Below, piece after piece: positions 50,338-59,775 of a stretch of DNA of 64,000 bases. How positions within the stretch are numbered: position 1 is the first letter of the stretch; each line of letters begins with the position of its first letter. This DNA is from Acidobacteriota bacterium. Its GTDB lineage: Bacteria > Acidobacteriota > Terriglobia > UBA7540. The translations under genes were made by a program, and so were the position numbers. Below the pieces are notes generated by a model. It worked only from the letters and a program-made list of their open reading frames with translations. It searched no databases and was not told the origin of the DNA. The DNA lies in NCBI GenBank assembly GCA_902812465.1, contig CADDZE010000005.1:19099-83098 (forward strand), written 5' to 3'.

Positions 50338-53157
50338 ATGGGGATGCGCGACCACTTTCAGGGTGTCAACGAAGCGTGGGTTCTCGACCTGTATGAGCGC
50401 TACCAAGCGGACCCCGCCTCGGTCGACGAGGGCATACGAGCCTTCTTTCGCCAGTGGAAGCCCCCGGAAGGCTGGCTGGTAACCGAGGCGGACGCGACGC
50501 TCCCGCGAACAGCAGAGTCGGCTCGCACGTATGGCAAGGTCGTTGCCGCAGTCAATCTGGCGGAGTCGATCCGCAAATTCGGCCACTTGGCTGCTCAGCT
50601 TGATCCCTTGGGCAGTGACCCGCCGGGCGACCCGTCGCTTGACCCGGCGTTTCATGGGATCACGGAGGCCGAGCTCGCAGAATTGCCGGCCAGCCTGATC
50701 GTCGGGCCGATCGCTCAGGACAAGCGGAACGCCCTCGAGGTGATTCAGGAGCTGCGCCGCGTCTATTCGTCGGTGAGTGGCTGGGACTGGGCCCACCTGC
50801 GCGTCCCCGAGGAGCGCGAGTGGCTGCAGACGGCAGTGGAGCGCGGGCTCTACCGCCCCCCCGCCGATCCTATCGACGAGGTGGCGTTGCTGGACCGCTT
50901 GACGCAGGAGGGCGTCTTCGAGCTCTTCCTGCACCGCACGTTTCCCGGCAAGACTCGGTTCTCCATCGAAGGGCTGGGCATGCTGATCCCCATGCTCGAC
51001 GAGATCATCAGCGACGCGGCCGACGCCGGGATCCGCAACGTGCTGATTGGCATGGCGCACCGCGCGCGTTTGAATGTCCTGGCGCATGTGCTGAACAAGC
51101 CGTACGCGCAGATCATTGCGGAGTTCAAGGACCCGGCGCGTGCCAGCCGGCTTCGCGGTGATCTGGGATGGACCGGGGACGTGAAGTATCACGCAGGTTT
51201 CCGCCGCGCCGTGCGGGACGGGCACGAGGTGAACATGGTGGTCTCGCTGGCCCCCAACCCGAGCCACCTCGAGGCGGTTGACCCGGTAGTGGAGGGCATG
51301 GCCCGGGCGGCTGGAACCTTCGTCGACCGCGGCGGGCCGCCACGGTTCGATCCGACGCGGACTCTGCCCCTCCTCATTCACGGCGATGCTGCGTTTCCCG
51401 GCCAGGGTGTCGTAGCCGAGACGCTGAACCTCTATCGTTTGCCCGGCTACACCACCGGTGGCACCATTCATATCATCGCCAACAACCAGCTCGGCTTCAC
51501 GACCGAGCCAGAGGATGGTCGCAGCACCATCTACGCCAGCGACCTGGCGCGCGGCTTCCGCATTCCCATCGTGCGCGTCAACGCCGACTATCCGGAAGCG
51601 TGTATTGAGGCCGCCCGGGTGGCCCTGGCTTACCGCGTCCGCTTTCAGAAGGACTTTGTGATTGACCTCGTGGGCTACCGACGTTATGGCCACAACGAGG
51701 GCGATGAGCCTAGCTTCACCCAGCCGCTGATGTACCAGAAGATCGCTGCCCATCCCACAGTGCGGCAGCGGTGGGCTAAGACTCTGCTCGAACGCGGCGT
51801 AATCCAGGAGGGTGAGGCGGACGCCTTGGTCCGCAAGCACATGGATTATATCCAAGAAGTGCTGAAGACGGTGGAGCCCGAACGCCAACTGGTTGAACCC
51901 GAGCCCGCGCCGCCGCCGCCGGGGGCGGCTCGCCAGGCTCACACGGCCGTCGACGCCGAGAGGCTACGCCAGCTGAACGCCGCCCTGCTCAACCTGCCCC
52001 CGGGTTTCAACCTCAATCGCAAGCTGGAGCGTCCGCGAGCGCGAAGGCGAGAGATGCTGGCGGACCCGGAGGCCCGGACCATCGACTGGGCAGCCGCCGA
52101 GGAACTCGCGCTGGCATCGATCCTTGAGGACGGCATCGCCATCCGCCTGACCGGGCAGGATACCGAGCGCGGCACCTTCAGCCAGCGCCATGCTGTCCTC
52201 TTCGACGTGAAGACGGGCGAGCGCTTCGTGCCGCTCCAGGCCCTCCCCCAGGCGCGCGCCGCCTTCGAGGTTCACAACAGTCCGCTGACCGAGAATGCCG
52301 CCCTGGCTTTCGAATACGGTTACAACGTCCAGGAGCCGGGACGCCTCGTGATCTGGGAGGCGCAGTACGGCGACTTCATCAACGGCGCGCAAACGGTGGT
52401 GGATGAATTCATCGTGTCCGCGCGCGCCAAATGGGGGCTCACGCCTTCGCTGGTGCTCCTGCTGCCCCACGGTCTCGAGGGCCAAGGGCCGGACCATGCC
52501 AGTGCGCGTCCCGAGCGCTTCCTGCAACTGGCGGCGGCCATCAACCTGCGCCTGGCCAATTGCACTACCGCTGCGCAGTACTTCCACCTGCTGCGTCTGC
52601 AGGCGAGCCTTTTAAAGACGGACCCGCTGCCCCTGATTATCCTGACGCCCAAGAGCCTGCTGCGGCATCCGCGGGTGGCTTCGTCGTTGCGCGAGCTGGC
52701 CGAAGGACGCTTCCAGCGCGTGATCGACGACGCGCAAGCCGACCGCCAACGCGTGCGCCGGCTCATCCTCTGCTCGGGCAAGGTGTATGTAGACTTGGTG
52801 ACCTGCGGGCGGCGAGAGCAAACGCCCGAGGTGGCGATTGCTCGCCTTGAGCAGCTCTATCCCTTCCCGGGGGACGACTTGCGCCCTGTTCTGCAAGGTT
52901 ATCCCCGGCTGGAGGAGGTGGTATGGATGCAAGAGGAGCCGCGGAATATGGGGGCGTGGGAATTCCTGCGCCTTCAGCTCGCCCGCCTCATTGACGGTCG
53001 CTGGCCGCTGCACTACATCGGGCGGCCGCGCAGCTCGAGCCCGGCCGAAGGCTCGGCAGCTTGGCACACGCAGAACCAGGAGGCGCTGCTGCGCAATGCC
53101 TTTGACCTCGCCGAGATTCGTGCCGAGGAGAGCGTGTTGCTGAAGGGTCGCGCCTAG
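50338..53157 (+). CDS. sucA: 2-oxoglutarate dehydrogenase E1 component
   Basis: 939 residues, thiamine-diphosphate dehydrogenase that decarboxylates 2-oxoglutarate and transfers succinyl to the E2 lipoyl group. Motifs: FEL-type core FSIEGLGMLIPMLDEII, GMAHRARLNVLAHVLNKP, LAPNPSHLEAVDPVVEGMAR, the TPP-binding HGDAAFPGQGVVAETLNLYR, and the C-terminal QEEPRNMGAWEFLR. The N-terminal DHFQGVNEAWVLDLYERYQA is the E2-binding helix region. Length is normal. sucB follows at 53284; the E3 gene is not in the window. The leader before 50338 is short and contains TACTATAG. Confidence 0.95.
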   Translation: MGMRDHFQGVNEAWVLDLYERYQADPASVDEGIRAFFRQWKPPEGWLVTEADATLPRTAESARTYGKVVAAVNLAESIRKFGHLAAQLDPLGSDPPGDPSLDPAFHGITEAELAELPASLIVGPIAQDKRNALEVIQELRRVYSSVSGWDWAHLRVPEEREWLQTAVERGLYRPPADPIDEVALLDRLTQEGVFELFLHRTFPGKTRFSIEGLGMLIPMLDEIISDAADAGIRNVLIGMAHRARLNVLAHVLNKPYAQIIAEFKDPARASRLRGDLGWTGDVKYHAGFRRAVRDGHEVNMVVSLAPNPSHLEAVDPVVEGMARAAGTFVDRGGPPRFDPTRTLPLLIHGDAAFPGQGVVAETLNLYRLPGYTTGGTIHIIANNQLGFTTEPEDGRSTIYASDLARGFRIPIVRVNADYPEACIEAARVALAYRVRFQKDFVIDLVGYRRYGHNEGDEPSFTQPLMYQKIAAHPTVRQRWAKTLLERGVIQEGEADALVRKHMDYIQEVLKTVEPERQLVEPEPAPPPPGAARQAHTAVDAERLRQLNAALLNLPPGFNLNRKLERPRARRREMLADPEARTIDWAAAEELALASILEDGIAIRLTGQDTERGTFSQRHAVLFDVKTGERFVPLQALPQARAAFEVHNSPLTENAALAFEYGYNVQEPGRLVIWEAQYGDFINGAQTVVDEFIVSARAKWGLTPSLVLLLPHGLEGQGPDHASARPERFLQLAAAINLRLANCTTAAQYFHLLRLQASLLKTDPLPLIILTPKSLLRHPRVASSLRELAEGRFQRVIDDAQADRQRVRRLILCSGKVYVDLVTCGRREQTPEVAIARLEQLYPFPGDDLRPVLQGYPRLEEVVWMQEEPRNMGAWEFLRLQLARLIDGRWPLHYIGRPRSSSPAEGSAAWHTQNQEALLRNAFDLAEIRAEESVLLKGRA

Positions 53158-53283
53158 CGGACGGCTTTCCGAGTGCGCCAAGCTTTCGGCTTGGTGTCTG
53201 GGCTCTTTGCTTTCGATTCTGTCTCTGCTTGGCTCTCCGTTCCCACACGGAAAGGGCGAATTTCAAACGCGAGGATCGCCTCC

Positions 53284-54591
53284 ATGGCTACGAAAGTGGT
53301 GGTGCCCGAGCTGGGTGAGTCGGTGCTGGAAGCCACGGTCGGGAAATGGCTGAAGAAGGAGGGTGATTGGGTCAATCCCGGCGACGTACTGGTCACCCTG
53401 GAAACCGACAAGGTGGACCTGGAGGTGGGCGCGGAGCGGGGCGGCGTGCTGGCGCGCATTGAGCGGCAAACGGGCGAGGACGTGAAGATCGGTGAGGAGC
53501 TGGCGATCATCGAGGAAGTAGCGCCCGCCTTGGCCGAAGGGCAGGAAGCAAAGGGGACCGGACTCGAAGCGAAGGCGCCCGAGGTTCGTGAGCAAAAGGC
53601 TGCCGTGCCCGCTCCCCCTCAAGCGGGGACGCCCCCCTCCGAAGAAAAGGCTGTCCCACCAGGCAAGACCCAACCGGCCGCTTCGGAGCCTCCCATTCCT
53701 TTTCGGCCCACCCCCTCGGCGCGCCGTTACGCGCGCGAACACGGTCTAGGTGCATGGCCAGGCGGGACTATGCCGAGCCCATCGGGCCCCAGCCTTCAGA
53801 CTCCTTCATCGGCGACCTCCGGTCTGGTGGAAATGCCGCGGGGACGGGGTGAAGCTGAGGGAAGCGTGGCTGTATCAGCCCCAAGGGAAGCGCCGCGCGA
53901 GGAACGCATCCGCATGTCGCGCCGGCGTCTGACGATTGCCCGGCGGCTCGTCGAGGCCCAGCGCACGGCGGCCATGCTCACGACGTTCAACGAAGTCGAT
54001 ATGACGGCGGTCATGGAGCTGCGGGCGCGCCACAAGGACTCGTTCAAGCAGAAGTACGGCGTGGGGCTGGGAATCGTCTCTTTCTTTGTGAAGGCGTGCA
54101 TTGGCGCCCTGCGCGAGTTTCCCCGCCTCAACGCGGAAATCGACGGCGAGGAAATGGTGCTCAAATATTATTACGATATCGGCGTGGCGATTGGGGCTCC
54201 TGAAGGGCTGGTGGTGCCCGTGCTGCGCGATGCCGATCGCATGTCGCTGGCCGAAATCGAGCTGGCCGTGAAGGAGTTTGTGCGCAAGTCCGAGGAGGGC
54301 AAGCTTTCGCTGGACGACTTGCGAGGCGGTACATTCACCATTTCCAACGGCGGCGTCTATGGTTCACTTATGAGCACGCCCATCCTCAATCCGCCGCAGG
54401 TAGGCATCCTGGGGCTGCACAAGATCCAGGAACGGCCGGTGACCGTGGGAGGTCAGATGGTGAGCCGGCCCATGATGTATGTGGCCCTCAGTTACGACCA
54501 TCGCATTGTCGACGGTTCCGAAGCGGTGCGCTTCTTAGTGCGGGTGAAAGAATTGGTGGAGGACCCCGCCAGTCTGCTGTTCGCTACCTAG
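53284..54591 (+). CDS. sucB: 2-oxoglutarate dehydrogenase E2, dihydrolipoyl succinyltransferase
   Basis: 435 residues. The N-terminal lipoyl domain has the lipoylated Lys43 in [15 protein letters not shown] Pro/Ala/Glu-rich linker follows. The peripheral subunit-binding domain starts normally ([13 protein letters not shown]) but then loses the usual G-T-G-x-G-G-R-I-T-x-x-D-V part. The C-terminal catalytic domain is complete, with His and Asp in [16 protein letters not shown] and the trimer core [20 protein letters not shown]. The ATG at 53284 gives the family start [13 protein letters not shown]. The altered binding domain could change how E1/E3 attach. Confidence 0.93.
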
Positions 54592-54732: not shown

Positions 54733-54804
54733 GGCGCTATCGTCTAGGGGTTAGGACGTGAGATTCTCAATCTCAAAACCCGGGTTCGATTCCCGGTAGC
54801 GCTA
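54733..54804 (+). tRNA. tRNA-Glu (anticodon CTC)
   Basis: A cloverleaf is readable. The acceptor GGCGCTA pairs with TAGCGCT (G1-U72 wobble), and the D-arm TCGTCTAGGGG is typical of Glu tRNAs. The anticodon stem TGAGA/TCTCA encloses the loop TTCTCAA (anticodon CTC), and the T-arm is CCGGGTTCGATTCCCGG. CCA is not encoded. It stands alone between sucB and merR. Confidence 0.93.
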
Positions 54805-54934
54805 CCCACCCAGGTTGCCCTGCTCCATCCTCCAAGGCCAGGCGATGTCTCAGGAAGCAAGCCGGAGCCGGTGCCCCTTCCATGAACCTCGACCCTGCTC
54901 TAGGGTGTATGATGGGCCCGGGAGGTGAGCCCCG

Positions 54935-55423
54935 ATGGCCGAGACCTTCTACATCGGCCGCGTGGCGGCCGAGACCGGCCTCAGCGTTCATGCCATACGT
55001 TTCTACGAGCGCCAAGGGCTTCTGAAGGTGCCGATCCGCAGCCCGGGACGCTTCCGCATTTTCAGCGGCCAGGAAGTGCGCGACTTGAAGTTTATCCGCC
55101 GGGCCCAGGAGCTGGGGTTCTCGCTGACCGAGATTCGGGAGCTGCTGGTTCTGCGGCGCACCCGCCCGCAAGCTTGCGCGCACGTGCGGGACCTGCTGAT
55201 GAAAGCCCTCGGGCGCGTCGAGGAAAAGGTTGCAGACTTGGCGCGGTTGCGGCGTGAGCTCAGGAACAGTCTGCAGAAATGCGAGCGCGATCGGAAGCGT
55301 TCGCCAGCCAGAGCCGAGAGAACCTGTCCCGTGCTCGAACAACTCGATGGGACCGAGCCGGTGAAATCCCAGCCCTCCATCCCTTGCTCTCCTCTGGAGA
55401 AGCGGTCACCCAAAAGCTCTTGA
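54935..55423 (+). CDS. merR: MerR family regulator, mercury-sensor type
   Basis: 162 residues. The N-terminal winged helix is typical (YIGRVAAETGLSVHAIRFYE, RQGLLKVPIRSPGRFRIFSG), followed by the long dimer helix. The three metal-binding cysteines are Cys81 (RPQACAHV), Cys116 (SLQKCERD) and Cys131 (RTCPVLEQL), close to Cys82/117/126 of the Tn501 mercury sensor. GGAGGTGA precedes the ATG. It is transcribed in the same direction as the downstream metal genes, and a MerR-type operator lies just after its stop. A TATGAT box and a half-site-like TCTAGGGTG lie upstream of merR, suggesting self-control. The tail after residue 140 is extra. Confidence 0.88.
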   Translation: MAETFYIGRVAAETGLSVHAIRFYERQGLLKVPIRSPGRFRIFSGQEVRDLKFIRRAQELGFSLTEIRELLVLRRTRPQACAHVRDLLMKALGRVEEKVADLARLRRELRNSLQKCERDRKRSPARAERTCPVLEQLDGTEPVKSQPSIPCSPLEKRSPKSS

Positions 55424-55451
55424 ATCTAGACTCGTGTCTAGGGTGCATCCT
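55420..55451 (+). promoter_or_regulatory. MerR-type operator/promoter
   Basis: TTGAAT (-35, 55420-55425) is followed directly by the dyad CTAGAC-TCGT-GTCTAG (55426-55441), with CATCCT as -10 after a 20-base spacer (55446-55451). A 6+4+6 dyad abutting the -35 box and an over-long spacer are exactly the geometry of the Tn501 mer promoter. The -35 overlaps the merR stop codon. The 9-mer TCTAGGGTG recurs upstream of merR (54899-54907). Confidence 0.75.
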
Positions 55452-55504: not shown

Positions 55505-55858
55505 ATGACGCAAAACAGCCCTAGCTCAGCCACCAAGAGCACCTTACTCGCTGGTCTGGCGGCCCTCGGCGGCGTGATCCTGGCATCGAGCTGCTGCCTG
55601 CCGCTCTTGCCTTTCTTATTCGGCGCCGGGGCTGCAGGAAGTTCACTCCTCTTGGTCCGGCTGAGGCCTTTCCTGATGGCCGCCTCCGTCATCTCCGTAG
55701 CCTTCGGTTTCTACCAAGCCTGGCGGGCGAAGAAGTGCCATTGCCGGCCCAGTGTGCTGAGTACCATCCTGCTTTGGTTTTCTCTCGCGGTGGTGCTGGT
55801 CTTTCTTTTGTTTCCGCAAGCCATCGCCAATCTCTTGGCGAATATTTTGGCGGGCTGA
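55505..55858 (+). CDS. merT: MerT-like mercuric ion transporter
   Basis: 117 residues with three membrane segments. The first carries a vicinal cysteine pair (LASSCCLPLLPFL, Cys30-Cys31), and the loop between segments 2 and 3 has KKCHCRP (Cys78, Cys80). That is the cysteine layout of MerT, which passes Hg(II) from the periplasm to the cytoplasm. Length matches Tn501 MerT (116). It lies directly behind the MerR operator. No MerP or MerA is in the window. The next gene, 15 bases on, is the proposed selenoprotein. Confidence 0.85.
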   Translation: MTQNSPSSATKSTLLAGLAALGGVILASSCCLPLLPFLFGAGAAGSSLLLVRLRPFLMAASVISVAFGFYQAWRAKKCHCRPSVLSTILLWFSLAVVLVFLLFPQAIANLLANILAG

Positions 55859-55873
55859 CACGCGAGGAGCTTC

Positions 55874-56512
55874 ATGAAGCGCAAGACCCTTCCCCTCCTA
55901 GCCGCGGCGCTGGCGCTGCTGGGGTTACTGCTGGTCTACCAGTTTTATGGTGGAAGCGACGTTCCGGCGGGACAAGCACCACTGGTCCGGCTCGACGATT
56001 CCAATCTCTCCGCCCTGAGGGACGGCTTCAATCAGTCGGCCAATGCGGTGCGGCTGCTGATTCTGCTCTCGCCCACTTGAATCATTTGCTTGCAGGGGGC
56101 CTCTGCAATCGAGAAGGTTCTGGGCAGCCAACCCAGCCCCAAGATCCGCGTGTTTGTGGTGTGGGAACCCGTCTTGCCTACGGACCTCTCGGCTCCCTCG
56201 ACGGCCACTTTGAAGCGTCTCCGGGATCACCGGGTCTCCCAATATTGGGATAAGGGACGTTTGGTGTCACGTCTGTTGGGTGAGCGGGACCACCGCTCGA
56301 TCGTGTGGGATTACGTAGCCGTGTATCCGCCCGGGGCGCTTTGGAAGGAGGCACCTCCTGAGCCGCTCTACGCGCATACGCCCGTGGTCAAGTCCATCGA
56401 CGGCACGAAGGAGGCCATCCGCCAGGCCTTCCAGCGGTTGACGGACGCCTTCTTTCCCATGTACCTCCCGGGGGTCCGGTCCAGCGAGGCGGCTCCCCTC
56501 GCCGGAGGCTAA
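55874..56512 (+). CDS. Thioredoxin-like selenoprotein with UxxC motif (TGA at 56078-56080 read as Sec)
   Basis: Two open segments, 55874-56077 and 56081-56512, lie in the same frame and are separated by one TGA. Read through, they give a 212-residue protein: a membrane anchor or signal (LPLLAAALALLGLLLVYQFY), then NAVRLLILLSPT-U-IICLQG, with Sec69 and Cys72 forming UxxC after a beta strand, as in thioredoxin folds. The downstream half (RVFVVWEPVLPTDLSAPSTA, then VSQYWDKGRLVSRLL) has sustained protein character, unlike 3' junk. A hairpin placed as bacterial SECIS elements are follows the TGA. GAGGAG precedes the ATG. It sits between merT and a CopZ-like gene, so a redox step on a soft metal or metal-bound thiol is likely. 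Selenocysteine machinery is not in the window. A nonsense-mutated Cys gene is the alternative. Confidence 0.85.
56085..56113 (+). other. Candidate bacterial SECIS element
   Basis: Starting nine bases after the TGA, the stem TTGCAG (56090-56095) and CTGCAA (56103-56108) closes a seven-base G-rich loop GGGGCCT. A lower helix may continue past one mismatch (56085-56088 with 56110-56113). The loop begins 15 bases after the TGA. The TTGCAGG apex resembles the SelB-binding apex of the E. coli fdhF element (TTGCAGGTCTGCA). Confidence 0.7.
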
Positions 56513-56542: not shown

Positions 56543-57022
56543 ATGGCAACCTGTTGCGACGGCTCATCGCCACCTGCTCCGCCCACGATGGCCTGCCCTA
56601 GTTCCGGCACGCCCTCGAAGCAGGTCGGCCTGGTTACAGTGAAAAGCCTGGTTCGGCAGCTTCCTTTTGGGATGCCGCGTACCCAGTATTTCTTCTGCGA
56701 CTCCCCGGCCTGCGACATTGTTTACTTTCCCCTGGATACCAGCGCGCCGGTGTTCCGCTGCCGTGACCTGCTGGTGCCGGTTGGCGCCAAGCAACCAAGC
56801 GCATCCGGCTTGCTGTGCTACTGCTTCGGTGTCACCCGCGGGCAGGTTGAAGAGGAACTTCGGAAAGACGGCAAGTGCACCGTGCTGGAGCGAATCAGGG
56901 CAGAGGTCAAGGCTGGAAACTGCGCGTGCGAGTGGAAAAATCCATCGGGTAAGTGCTGCCTGGGCAGTATCGCCAGGGCGATCCATGACTTTAATCGCAA
57001 GAGTGGCCTTGTCCCGGGGTAG
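56543..57022 (+). CDS. CopZ N-terminal domain-like [2Fe-2S]/zinc protein
   Basis: 159 residues resembling the N-terminal domain of Archaeoglobus CopZ, a copper chaperone that binds zinc and a [2Fe-2S] cluster. Diagnostic parts: TVKSLVRQLPFGMPRTQYFF, CDSPACDIVYF, LLCYCFGVTRGQVEEEL, then CTVLERIRAEVKAGNCACEW and NPSGKCCLGSI. The C-terminal heavy-metal-associated domain of CopZ is absent. The usual N-terminal CPxCG knuckle reads CPSSG here, so the zinc site may be altered; an extra CC pair lies at residues 4-5. It is the last gene of the mer-like operon, 30 bases after the selenoprotein, and probably carries metal or electrons for it. Confidence 0.8.
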   Translation: MATCCDGSSPPAPPTMACPSSGTPSKQVGLVTVKSLVRQLPFGMPRTQYFFCDSPACDIVYFPLDTSAPVFRCRDLLVPVGAKQPSASGLLCYCFGVTRGQVEEELRKDGKCTVLERIRAEVKAGNCACEWKNPSGKCCLGSIARAIHDFNRKSGLVPG

Positions 57023-57147: not shown

Positions 57148-57858
57148 CTACACGCCAAGTGCGGGTTCGTCGGCGTTGGCGATAGCCGAGGCCTGCGGTT
57201 GGCCAACAAGATCCACAAAGGCAAACTGGTCGCGGACCACCGTCTCCCCCACCACCACCGGAACCATCGCCTCCAGCATCGGACCTGCGTAGACAAAGGA
57301 GTGGAATTCGCCCCGCTCGCCACAAGGATCCACGCCCTCCGGCAAATCTGCGAGAAACGCCTCATCGAACTCCCGGCCAGCAAAAGACGCGTCGAGTTTC
57401 CGCAGGTCGATGCAGGTCAACTTCGCTTTGAGTCCGGAGGCAATCATCTCCTCGGCCAGCTCCCGGGTTGGACGTCCCCATAAGGGAAAGATCGGGTCCA
57501 ATCCCGTGCCTTTCATCCGTCTTTCCCGATAGGCGCGCACATCCTCCAGGAACAGATCGCCAAAGGCAATGCCTTCGATGCCCCGGGCTACCGCCAGAGC
57601 GCACGCTTGAGCCATCAGCCTCTCGTATTGTTCATTGGGGCAGGGCCAGGGCAGAGGAACGGTCCAGAGCGCGATGCCAGCCGCCGCCGCTTGTCTCTCC
57701 ACCAGCTGGCGGCGGACCCCATGCATGGCGACGCGCTGAAACGCTTGGTTCAAGGTGGTCAGCAATCCGACCACCTCATAGGCCGGATCTTTGCGAAGAA
57801 CGTGGAGAGCCCACGCACTGTCTTTGCCGCTGCTCCAGGAAAGGAGGATGCGCGTCAT
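57148..57858 (-). CDS. DUF71 (diphthine-ammonia ligase-like) ATPase linked to B12
   Basis: 236 residues of the PP-loop ATPase superfamily (COG2102). The ATP motif is ILLSWSSGKDSAWALHVL and the second family region is GIEGIAFGDLFLEDVRAYRE, followed by GLDPIFPLWGRPTRELAEEM. In eukaryotes and archaea the family makes diphthamide. Bacteria lack diphthamide, and comparative genomics has predicted that a bacterial subgroup serves B12 salvage. Here it overlaps the BtuF-like gene (ATGA) in an operon behind a cobalamin riboswitch, which supports that role. The reaction is unknown. Confidence 0.82.
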   Translation of the reverse strand: MTRILLSWSSGKDSAWALHVLRKDPAYEVVGLLTTLNQAFQRVAMHGVRRQLVERQAAAAGIALWTVPLPWPCPNEQYERLMAQACALAVARGIEGIAFGDLFLEDVRAYRERRMKGTGLDPIFPLWGRPTRELAEEMIASGLKAKLTCIDLRKLDASFAGREFDEAFLADLPEGVDPCGERGEFHSFVYAGPMLEAMVPVVVGETVVRDQFAFVDLVGQPQASAIANADEPALGV

Positions 57859-58772
57859 GGCTGCTGGACCGGCTCGGCACCTGCCACCTCGGAGCGTGCC
57901 GACTGGGCTCCCTTGTGGTGGCGGAACAGTTCAGCCATGACCTGAATTCCCTCCCCGATCCTGGGTCCTGGGCGCGAGAAGTAGCTGCTGGCATCCATGG
58001 CCACCACGTGGCCCTCGCGTACGGCTCGCAGAGCGTGCCATTCCGGGGGAAAAGGCACTTTCCTCAGCTCCTCCTCCACTTCTGCAGCGTGGTAGCCGCA
58101 GGGCATGGCCAGAATCATGTCCGGGTCGCTCTCCAGCACCGTCTGCCAGCTGACCTCGTAGCCTGGCTCTCCAGGCTTCCCCAGCACGTCGACGCCCCCC
58201 GCCAGGGCCACCATTTCCGGTACCCAATGGCCGGCGACGAAGGGAGGATCAAGCCATTCCAGGCAGAGAACTCGCGGCGGTTCGCCAGCCGGCTGACTCG
58301 CCACGGACGAGACCTGTGCCGTGAGGCGCGCCACGAGGTCACGCGCCTCCACCGCTTTCCCGGTGGCGTCGCCCACTTCCAGGATGTTGTCCCACACATC
58401 GGCAACGGTTCGAGGGCTGAGGGCCAACACTTTCGGTTCGGAAGGGAGGCGCGCCAGCACAGCGCCGAAGTCGTTTGGGGAAGCCGCGCAAACCCGGCAC
58501 AAGTCTTGAGTGATGATGAGATCGGGTCGAATCCGCTGCAGTTTCTCTTCGTCTAAGCCATAGAGGCTCTGGCCGGCTGGCAAGGACTCCTTGACGCGAT
58601 GGTCGATCTCTTGCTGCGAGAGACCAGGTGGGAGCCGGCTGTAGACCACCACGGGCTTGTTACGCGCCTCGGCCGGATAGTCGCACTCGTAGGTGACGCC
58701 CAGGACCGAATCACCCAGGCCCAGGGCAAACAATATTTCCGTGCCTGACGGCAGGAAGGAGCAGATCCTCAT
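57855..58772 (-). CDS. btuF: BtuF-like cobalamin-binding protein
   Basis: 305 residues of the helical-backbone periplasmic metal-receptor family. It starts MRICSFLPSGTEILFALGLG and shows VLGVTYECDYPAEARNKPVV, LDEEKLQRIRPDLIITQDLC and SSYFSRPGPRIGEGIQVM, typical of cobalamin-binding members. No signal peptide is seen at the chosen ATG (58772), as in many proteins annotated this way; the longer upstream frame runs into the preceding gene. It lies 44 bases after the DUF6580 gene and overlaps the DUF71 gene. BtuC/BtuD are not in the window. Confidence 0.85.
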   Translation of the reverse strand: MRICSFLPSGTEILFALGLGDSVLGVTYECDYPAEARNKPVVVYSRLPPGLSQQEIDHRVKESLPAGQSLYGLDEEKLQRIRPDLIITQDLCRVCAASPNDFGAVLARLPSEPKVLALSPRTVADVWDNILEVGDATGKAVEARDLVARLTAQVSSVASQPAGEPPRVLCLEWLDPPFVAGHWVPEMVALAGGVDVLGKPGEPGYEVSWQTVLESDPDMILAMPCGYHAAEVEEELRKVPFPPEWHALRAVREGHVVAMDASSYFSRPGPRIGEGIQVMAELFRHHKGAQSARSEVAGAEPVQQP

Positions 58773-58816
58773 CCCCTGGGTTCCGCCTTTGAAGGAAGGC
58801 CGATGACCTGCCTTCC

Positions 58817-59344
58817 TCAGCTGATTCCAGCTTGCGCGCGCAGCTGCTGGGTGCGCTTGGCCTGGTAAAGCTCGTGGAGTCCGAACAGCACGCCCCCGAA
58901 CACAAAGGTGGAGGCGAGGGAATACCCGTAAAAGGGGATGCCGGCTACATAACACTCCATCAGGCCTGCCCAACTTGCCGGATACGCACGCCAGCCTAGC
59001 CACACGCCAAAATTACTGATCAAGTAAAAGGCTGTCGGCGCGGCAGCACACGCCAACGCTAATCTGCTTAGCGTGACCTTGGAACGCAGCAGCCACCCTA
59101 TCATGGCAACGGCGGCAAAGGCTGCCATCTGGATGCCCTCTCCCCAGCCGATCCGCATGTGGTAAACCAGCTCGGTGAGGACGAAGTCGCTGGCCCCCAA
59201 AAGGACGAGCGGAAACCAGATGGAATCACGTTTCCTCAGATAGGCTCCGCCAAACAGCAAAGCGCCGTACACCGGCGAAAAGTTGGGGACGTGGGGAATA
59301 AAGCGGGCCAGAACGGCCAGCGCCACAATCAGGTAGATGTACAT
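58817..59344 (-). CDS. DUF6580 membrane protein, candidate ECF-type vitamin B12 transporter component
   Basis: 175 residues with five or six membrane segments: YIYLIVALAVLARFIPHVPN, NFSPVYGALLFGGAYLRKRD, IWFPLVLLGASDFVLTELVY, MAAFAAVAMIGWLLRSK and further ones. The fold resembles S-components of energy-coupling-factor transporters. The ATG at 59344 follows AGGAGG. It is the first gene after a cobalamin riboswitch and shares the operon with a BtuF-like protein, so B12, cobinamide or cobalt transport is the best inference. No ECF ATPase adjoins. Confidence 0.8.
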   Translation of the reverse strand: MYIYLIVALAVLARFIPHVPNFSPVYGALLFGGAYLRKRDSIWFPLVLLGASDFVLTELVYHMRIGWGEGIQMAAFAAVAMIGWLLRSKVTLSRLALACAAAPTAFYLISNFGVWLGWRAYPASWAGLMECYVAGIPFYGYSLASTFVFGGVLFGLHELYQAKRTQQLRAQAGIS

Positions 59345-59503
59345 GAGTTCCTCCTGTTTCCTCTCTGAAGGCAGGTGGTGGAAGCGACGCCTTGGCGGGG
59401 TACGTACGAGAGACGGAGCAAACCGCAGAACTGCGATCGACCTGAAAGACGATCGGTTAGCCGGGTTCTCACTGCTTACCTTCCCGCGAAGGCTCACCAT
59501 CCA

Positions 59504-59663
59504 GCTTCTGGCAGGTCTCCTGACTCTCGCCTCCACGGATTGGCCGCCTTCCCAACCTTTCCGGGTCAGTGGCTGCCTGGCCAATCCTCCGCGATCACAG
59601 TGGCGGGGCCGTGCCGGATTCTCACCGGCTTCCCTTTTCAGCTCTCAACCTAGCACCAGAAGC
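59504..59663 (-). promoter_or_regulatory. Cobalamin riboswitch
   Basis: Read on the minus strand it has the closing helix GCTTCTGG/CCAGAAGC, the core GGGAAGCCGGTGAGAATCCG, and the diagnostic GCCACTG (59604-59598). It ends in GAGTCAGGAGACCTGCC. It sits 160 bases before the DUF6580 ATG, leaving room for an expression platform. Binding of adenosylcobalamin should repress the three-gene operon. Confidence 0.95.
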
Positions 59664-59775
59664 AGCCTACCATCTCATTTACGCCGGCCAGTGAGAAAAG
59701 TCAAGCCGTGCTTCGCGCTAGATCCGCCATTGCCCTCCCAGAGTTGCTCTCCCAGACTACAATGGGCGATTGGCC

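Follow-up and report, generated by a model that had tools for sequence, protein, structure and literature searches.

TlpA, ResA and CcmG are anchored periplasmic proteins that keep metal- or haem-binding cysteines reduced (copper and haem sites), and in mer operons the CxxC pair of MerP hands Hg(II) to the CC pair of MerT. That Hg(II) is held very tightly by selenolates is established chemistry. An association of selenium with mercury genes is likewise familiar, since the 119 prokaryotic selenoprotein families listed in the available part of PMC13188914 include the mercury-linked MerT family, SaoT, SaoL, HgcA and HgcB. Here we describe an operon in a 64,000-nucleotide stretch of DNA from a soil Acidobacteriota bacterium (the window), in which a very probable thioredoxin-like selenoprotein, whose gene is shared by many related bacteria of soil, is predicted to help handle mercury or a similar toxic metal.

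An earlier note on this DNA had described a frame broken by a single TGA at 56078-56080, and this description holds: the frame runs from ATG 55874 to TAA 56510-56512, the TGA is its sole internal stop, and read-through gives a 212-residue protein with SPT-U-IIC. Judged from the sequence, it is very likely that 55874-56512 encodes a thioredoxin-like selenoprotein (the Sec protein) in which this TGA is read as selenocysteine (Sec). The features of the operon are collected in Table 1.

Table 1. Features of the predicted selenoprotein operon, in positions of the window
Feature	Position	Strand	Basis or remark
Weak MerR-type promoter site before the MerR gene (20-base spacer, 5-bp dyad)	54882..54913	+	Relaxed threshold
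MerR-family regulator, candidate metal ligands C81, C116, C131	54935..55423	+	Pfam MerR families
MerR-type promoter site before the MerT-like gene (TTGAAT, 20-base spacer, 6-bp dyad, CATCCT)	55420..55451	+	
MerT-like membrane protein, CC pair and CxC pair	55505..55858	+	Sub-cut-off NCBIfam matches
Predicted selenoprotein gene	55874..56512	+	Predicted membrane anchor and thioredoxin-like domain
Codons of N-terminal helix (residues 5-25), read as membrane anchor	55886..55948	+	Helix in structure model
TGA read as selenocysteine 69	56078..56080	+	Frame, conservation across loci
Cys72 codon, second residue of the UxxC pair	56087..56089	+	Invariant, 16-row alignment
Putative bacterial SECIS hairpin (arms 56090-56095 and 56103-56108)	56090..56108	+	bSECIS rules, covariation
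CopZ-type metallochaperone, zinc and BFD-like [2Fe-2S] domains	56543..57022	+	NF047645, PF18423

Operon setting and control sites

The operon carries, in order, the MerR, MerT-like, Sec protein and CopZ-like genes. For the MerR gene the best NCBIfam model is TIGR02051 (MerR) with 104 bits against a cut-off of 151, followed by CueR with 102 bits, and the window gene thus falls outside the MerR equivalog. Its three candidate ligand cysteines were placed by alignment with solved MerR and CadR, and all three are Cys in 34 of 36 related MerR proteins. The MerT-like protein matches the NCBIfam models MerTP_fusion (E 9.6e-7) and PRK13751 MerT (4.8e-5), both far under their cut-offs (NCBIfam 28.6 bits, cut-off 180), and has no match to Pfam MerT, making it, on this test, a relative of the family and no member. 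The CopZ-type gene exceeds the cut-offs of both NF047645 (123 bits, cut-off 100) and PF18423 (48.5 bits, cut-off 28.4).

The mer-like setting that the earlier note had recognized in the window recurs among relatives. Among 28 loci from named genomes, a MerT-like gene is a neighbor in 25, MerR in 16 and CopZ in two, some of these loci being cut at contig ends, and a MerA-bearing operon surrounds the Cys-form locus L139. Over a larger set of 66 loci, which counts some places twice, the corresponding numbers are 57, 36, and two, with the DF family (NF049942) adjoining in 32. CopZ was rejected as a core partner, being present in only 2 of the 28 loci of relatives. The DF gene (e.g., L032:6155-6478) usually lies between the MerR and MerT-like genes; no TGA was found within the stretches of the DF genes aligned in the 32 loci, and the window has no DF copy between MerR and MerT. 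In L032, a small membrane protein without a Pfam or NCBIfam match (L032:6411-6908) is encoded between DF and the MerT-like gene, and similar ones occur in 6 of the 66 loci.

Control sites were scored against consensus promoter hexamers. The two sites of the window match these hexamers at 3/6 and 4/6 positions (54882..54913) and at 5/6 and 5/6 positions (55420..55451). Strong MerR-type promoters, with 20-base spacers and dyads, precede MerR in 18 of 27 loci versus 8 of 540 shuffles, the 27 being what is left of 36 MerR loci once repeat copies and one cut locus are set aside, and a wider scan found sites in 28 of 65 loci versus 32 of 325 shuffles. Most operators of the relatives have a 20-base spacer and read TTGACTCTGGAGT..ACTCCAG, which we take to resemble a ZntR site rather than the classic mer site. 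One locus, L142, has what is presumably a mer-like operator before its CopZ, MerT-like and Sec genes.

A tRNA-Glu gene (CTC, 54733-54806) directly precedes the operon, and ahead of it the ORFs 50338-53157 and 53173-54591 resemble by eye the E1 and E2 components of 2-oxoglutarate dehydrogenase. Genes for tRNAs are common insertion sites for mobile DNA; a search of the plasmid collection PLSDB returned no match at E <= 1e-5. Farther along the window, a cobalamin riboswitch (59493-59675, minus strand, 122 bits) stands ahead of the minus-strand ORFs 58817-59584, 57855-59003 and 57148-57858, whose products resemble by eye a membrane protein, a binding protein of BtuF type and an ATPase like diphthine-ammonia ligase; together with the riboswitch they are perhaps a B12 uptake operon.

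Fold, proposed role and candidate metal

The structure model of the Sec protein (pLDDT 91.6) has a thioredoxin fold in which residue 69 stands immediately before helix 70-85. Its nearest solved folds include DsbE, ResA and CcmG (Foldseek, VIA-align, the latter examining only folds that Foldseek ranked high), and in the model the active pair sits at the start of the first helix, as in the TlpA/ResA/CcmG fold. At the level of sequence family, Pfam and NCBIfam returned nothing for the protein at E <= 1. Residues 5–25 probably anchor it in the membrane with the domain outward, as suggested by their hydrophobic letters and the basic N terminus. The best reading of the locus is that of a predicted TlpA/ResA-like selenol reductase, which would face the periplasm and serve a MerT-type soft-metal transporter.

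The proposed mechanism begins with the operon itself, which is led by a MerR-family gene whose product has three cysteines as candidate metal ligands and which has MerR-type promoter-like sites. A soft metal, most likely Hg(II), would turn the operon on. In a predicted step that is strongly supported, the host's own selA/B/C/D would serve to insert Sec at the TGA, with SelB acting together with the hairpin 56090-56108. The anchor helix is predicted to tether the TlpA/ResA/CcmG-like domain outside the cell membrane, where the UxxC pair would keep the cysteine pairs of MerT (and of any MerP-like domain) reduced for metal binding and transfer, and selenium in the UxxC pair may make this exchange fast and hard to poison. 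To the claim in its specific form, that the Sec protein is a thioredoxin-like, inner-membrane, periplasm-facing redox partner of the adjoining MerT-like transporter, most likely for Hg(II), we give about an even chance.

Fused relatives bear on this role. L048 and L055 each encode a MerT-like domain and a Sec domain in one frame that is open except for the TGA, and an HMA (MerP-like) domain is fused to the Sec forms L069 and L076 and to the Cys form L075. The order in L139 is MerR, MerT/Trx (Cys form), a weakly MerP-like gene and MerA; the MerT domain fused to the Cys form just reaches the PF02411 cut-off (32.9 bits), the MerP-like gene stays under its cut-off (20.8 bits), and MerA is over its own (502.6 bits). 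Thioredoxin (Trx) domains in one chain with HMA or with MerT fit a reductase acting on the cysteine pairs of carriers and transporters. In another reading of the same fusions, the metal ligand would be selenium: the UxxC pair would chelate Hg(II) between its selenolate and thiolate and pass the metal to the CC pair of MerT, acting as a selenium-based substitute for MerP. We consider this rather doubtful. The fusions in L048 and L055 do have a known counterpart in the MerT/MerP fusion of model NF033556, no cluster of MerP genes recurs among the neighbors of the 28 loci, and the tightness of selenolate-Hg(II) binding would suit such a ligand; however, because HMA-Trx fusions exist in three relatives and a Trx domain occurs together with a MerP-like gene in L139, the Trx domain does not appear to be merely a replacement for MerP, and the modeled fold and the U/CxxC site are those of reductases. 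A related and broader proposal, of a selenium-dependent mercury system widespread in soil Acidobacteriota, in which a periplasmic, Sec-armed thioredoxin-like protein would bind Hg(II) as a selenolate and exchange it with the MerT-like transporter, with no mercuric reductase, seems to us unlikely.

For the metal that the predicted reductase would help to move, Hg(II) is most likely and is our best guess from the genes at hand. The relationship to MerT, the three-cysteine MerR, the MerA-bearing operon of L139 and the operator of L142, which we take to be mer-like and which precedes CopZ, MerT-like and Sec genes, all point to mercury. The same partnership of selenoprotein and transporter may instead serve another metal (Cd, Pb, Zn, Cu or Ag), a possibility that we rate as decidedly unlikely in view of the MerT relationship and these two loci. 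In its favor, most operators look ZntR-like, with 20-base spacers, the MerR gene scores almost equally on the models for Hg (104 bits) and Cu (102 bits) and aligns with CadR, the CopZ-type neighbor in the window points to copper, and MerA is usually absent. The absence of MerA, the ZntR-like operators and the CopZ gene count against specificity for Hg, and the scores of the MerR and MerT-like window genes under the NCBI cut-offs count against the mercury assignment.

The earlier note had seen no MerA in the window, and this extends to the whole draft genome, in which none exceeds the curated cut-off (best 298 bits, cut-off 454). Elsewhere, MerA over the cut-off occurs in 2 of 52 other genomes of the class sample with the TGA form and in 3 of 37 genomes of the phylum sample with that form, and across the phylum sample its enrichment is not significant (5 of 49 genomes with the family versus 15 of 347 without, p 0.09). 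The suggestion of a metal reduction system is thus the weakest part of the earlier reading, and since MerA is mostly absent, uptake without reduction is left unaccounted for.

The TGA codon, its hairpin and the selenocysteine machinery

A protein search with the read-through sequence gave 234 relatives at E <= 1e-3, of which 120 were listed and 30 fetched. Of the 30 database entries fetched, 24 are truncated at the TGA and start after the site, and the remaining six are full length with Cys aligned to the TGA. At the level of DNA, 28 loci from named genomes were compared (by title, 26 acidobacterial MAGs, one Eisenbacteria and one Archangiaceae). Of these, 26 keep TGA at the exact codon, Cys is seen in none, and the two others cannot be judged (L054 starts past the codon and L056 is interrupted). 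The family, recognized by no Pfam or NCBIfam model, was found in 49 of the 396 phylum-sample genomes, with TGA in 42 of 55 matches spread over 37 genomes, and in 63 of the 399 class-sample genomes, with TGA in 55 of 65 matches. On a 95-row tree, at least 8 changes between Sec and Cys are required, five of them forced by supported branches.

The ten stop-free matches of the class sample comprise one with Cys at the site and nine where Arg, Asp or Thr stands instead. Homologues lacking both Cys and Sec there had been named in advance as a sign against a selenoprotein, and such homologues do exist, although the nine (L123-L130 and L132, mostly from one genus of the class) also lack the second Cys and appear to be a distinct branch in which the active site has been lost. 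We read them in this way because MerR, MerT-like and DF genes were not found near them, in stretches of ~5 kb searched with a widened query set; a narrower search with a single MerT query gave the same result but overlooked the MerT-like genes in L139 and L142 too. The single class match with Cys has MerR, MerT-like and DF genes all nearby.

The genome itself, a draft assembly of 98.56% completeness and 4.16% contamination, carries the full set of selA (576 bits, cut-off 268), selB (369.9 bits, cut-off 242), tRNA-Sec (selC; 73 bits, gathering 47) and selD (383 bits, cut-off 125) on four contigs, the set for which the earlier note had advised a search. In its selD (G000:C42:3121-4047, locus L090), a TGA stands in frame within a UxxK motif, the known Sec form of SelD, and SelD itself is thus apparently a selenoprotein. 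Over the phylum sample, selB exceeds its cut-off in 254 of 396 genomes, in 35 of 37 with the TGA form versus 219 of 359 others (p 1.6e-5), the two exceptions being drafts of 72% and 90% completeness. Because selB is also present in 11 of the 12 genomes that have only non-TGA matches (two such matches being weak), this co-occurrence gives support at the level of lineages only, and the presence of selB fails to separate TGA forms from Cys forms in that sample.

Directly after the Cys72 codon, the sequence TTGCAG-GGGGCCT-CTGCAA can form a hairpin, which the earlier note had called SECIS-like and at the right distance. The bSECIS rules in the available part of PMC13188914 are an apical loop of 3–9 nt, a stem of 4–16 bp, a G within the first two positions of the loop, a distance of 16–37 nt from the TGA, and an MFE <= -7.5. 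The MFE fold of 56078-56119 lies within these limits, with an 8-bp upper stem, a 3-nt loop GGC, a distance of 17 nt from the TGA, and -11.6 kcal/mol; counting the six covarying pairs only, a 7-nt loop begins 15 nt past the TGA, one below the minimum. Across 74 distinct 42-mers drawn from 92 TGA rows, standard pairs make up 90.3% of the hairpin pair cells, and the covariation score is 0.540 versus 0.199 when shuffled and at most 0.190 when slid, with nine of the 74 rows forming fewer than the five inner pairs in this register. The codons on the two arms also go together: for the Gln/Arg residue two before Ala/Gly-Ser, Gln CAG is accompanied by Ser TCT in all 23 cases and Arg CGG by Ser TCC in all 36 (Fisher p 7e-17, uncorrected for descent). 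Since a synonymous third base here tracks a non-synonymous second base, protein constraint offers no explanation for the pairing. On the tree, the Q/R codon and the Ser codon change six times each, and the independent pairs on supported branches number only three, all agreeing but too few for the sign test to reach significance (p 0.25), so that independence of the covariation from descent is only partly shown. The folding energy of the window hairpin is ordinary (z -0.87), as is the mean over the rows against synonymous resampling (z -0.84; rank of 2 of 100 or lower in 4 of 74 rows), and because folding energy is uninformative, the argument for the hairpin is built on covariation. We regard 56090-56108 as a real hairpin and a probable bSECIS element on this comparative evidence. 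In the distant Sec forms L066, L068, L076, L078, L079 and L081, a different stretch follows the TGA, GGCGCCCGG or similar and then GTGCA, perhaps a second type of SECIS.

Three other explanations of the TGA were rejected. The first, that it is an ordinary stop and that a separate second protein starts at TTG 56090, is very improbable: the TTG is present and 24 of the 30 fetched relatives begin past the site, yet such a start would cut the modeled thioredoxin fold at its active site, the Cys relatives are single chains, the alignment has TGA at the site in 92 rows and Cys in six with TAA or TAG in none, and the hairpin covaries. The lone stop in an otherwise open frame might also have been a nonsense mutation, a pseudogene or a sequencing error at 56078-56080, but the conservation of the same TGA across genomes (the 26 named loci include phyla beyond Acidobacteriota, and the 42 phylum-sample and 55 class-sample matches agree) makes the probability of this negligible. 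Finally, TGA is not recoded genome-wide, because the neighboring MerT-like ORF 55505-55858 in the same operon terminates with TGA as an ordinary stop.

Comparison with known systems

Selenium is tied to MerT-type metal operons by the order of the genes, by fusions in frame and by one operon that includes MerA, and a link between the supply of selenium and the handling of mercury or soft metals in soil thereby becomes directly testable. An SPT-U-xxC protein beside MerT is unnamed among the 119 families of the available part of PMC13188914, the most recent such list for prokaryotes, compared by name and motif rather than by sequence. The available parts of PMC9312934 and PMC12013277 name no selenoprotein closer to the window protein, and in that of PMC8261052, a survey of mer genes, "thioredoxin" appears twice, both times in references. 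The literature consulted in part yielded no study that places a thioredoxin-like selenoprotein next to merT, the families of Haft and Gwadz 2023 and Haft and Tolstoy 2025 having been compared via Table 1 of PMC13188914.

Compared with MerT/MerP of mer operons (PF02411, NF033556 MerTP_fusion, TIGR02052 MerP), the locus is alike in its MerT-like partner with a CC pair and in the fusion of the Trx domain to MerT-like proteins (L048, L055 and, in Cys form, L139), whereas the Sec protein has a thioredoxin fold and not HMA, the MerT-like protein of the window is under the cut-offs, and the genome has no MerA over its cut-off. TlpA, ResA and CcmG (DsbE) share with it the nearest solved folds, one N-terminal helix and the two-residue spacing of the active pair, but here Sec replaces the first Cys, identity is 6–16% in the listed structure matches, and the window protein has no Redoxin, AhpC-TSA or Thioredoxin match in Pfam.

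Among selenoproteins, SaoT (NF040730) of the SAO system is likewise a UxxC thioredoxin-like protein from an operon tied to mercury-type chemistry, according to the available part of PMC13188914 (SAO reference, from the available part of PMC10418091: Haft and Gwadz 2023). It differs in that the window protein has no NCBIfam match at E <= 1 (NF040730 being assumed to be in release 20.0) and in the neighbors, which here are MerR, MerT-like, DF and CopZ, the SAO ABC transporter being absent among those that recur. The MerT-family selenoprotein (PF02411), the MerT/CopZ fusion selenoprotein (NF045683) and the UxxU metal-binding protein (NF041115) also place selenium in mer-type genes, but with Sec in the transporter or HMA domain, whereas the Sec of the window lies in a separate thioredoxin fold. 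The recurrent DF neighbor (NF049942) is itself listed as a selenoprotein family in the available parts of PMC13188914 and PMC12013277, and is a different small thioredoxin-like family. The earlier suggestion of a probable new selenoprotein is supported by the TGA at 26 of 28 named loci, the machinery present in the genome and the absence of the protein from these family lists, as far as available. By these tests, the Sec protein would represent a new selenoprotein family and a variant of the known selenium-mercury theme.
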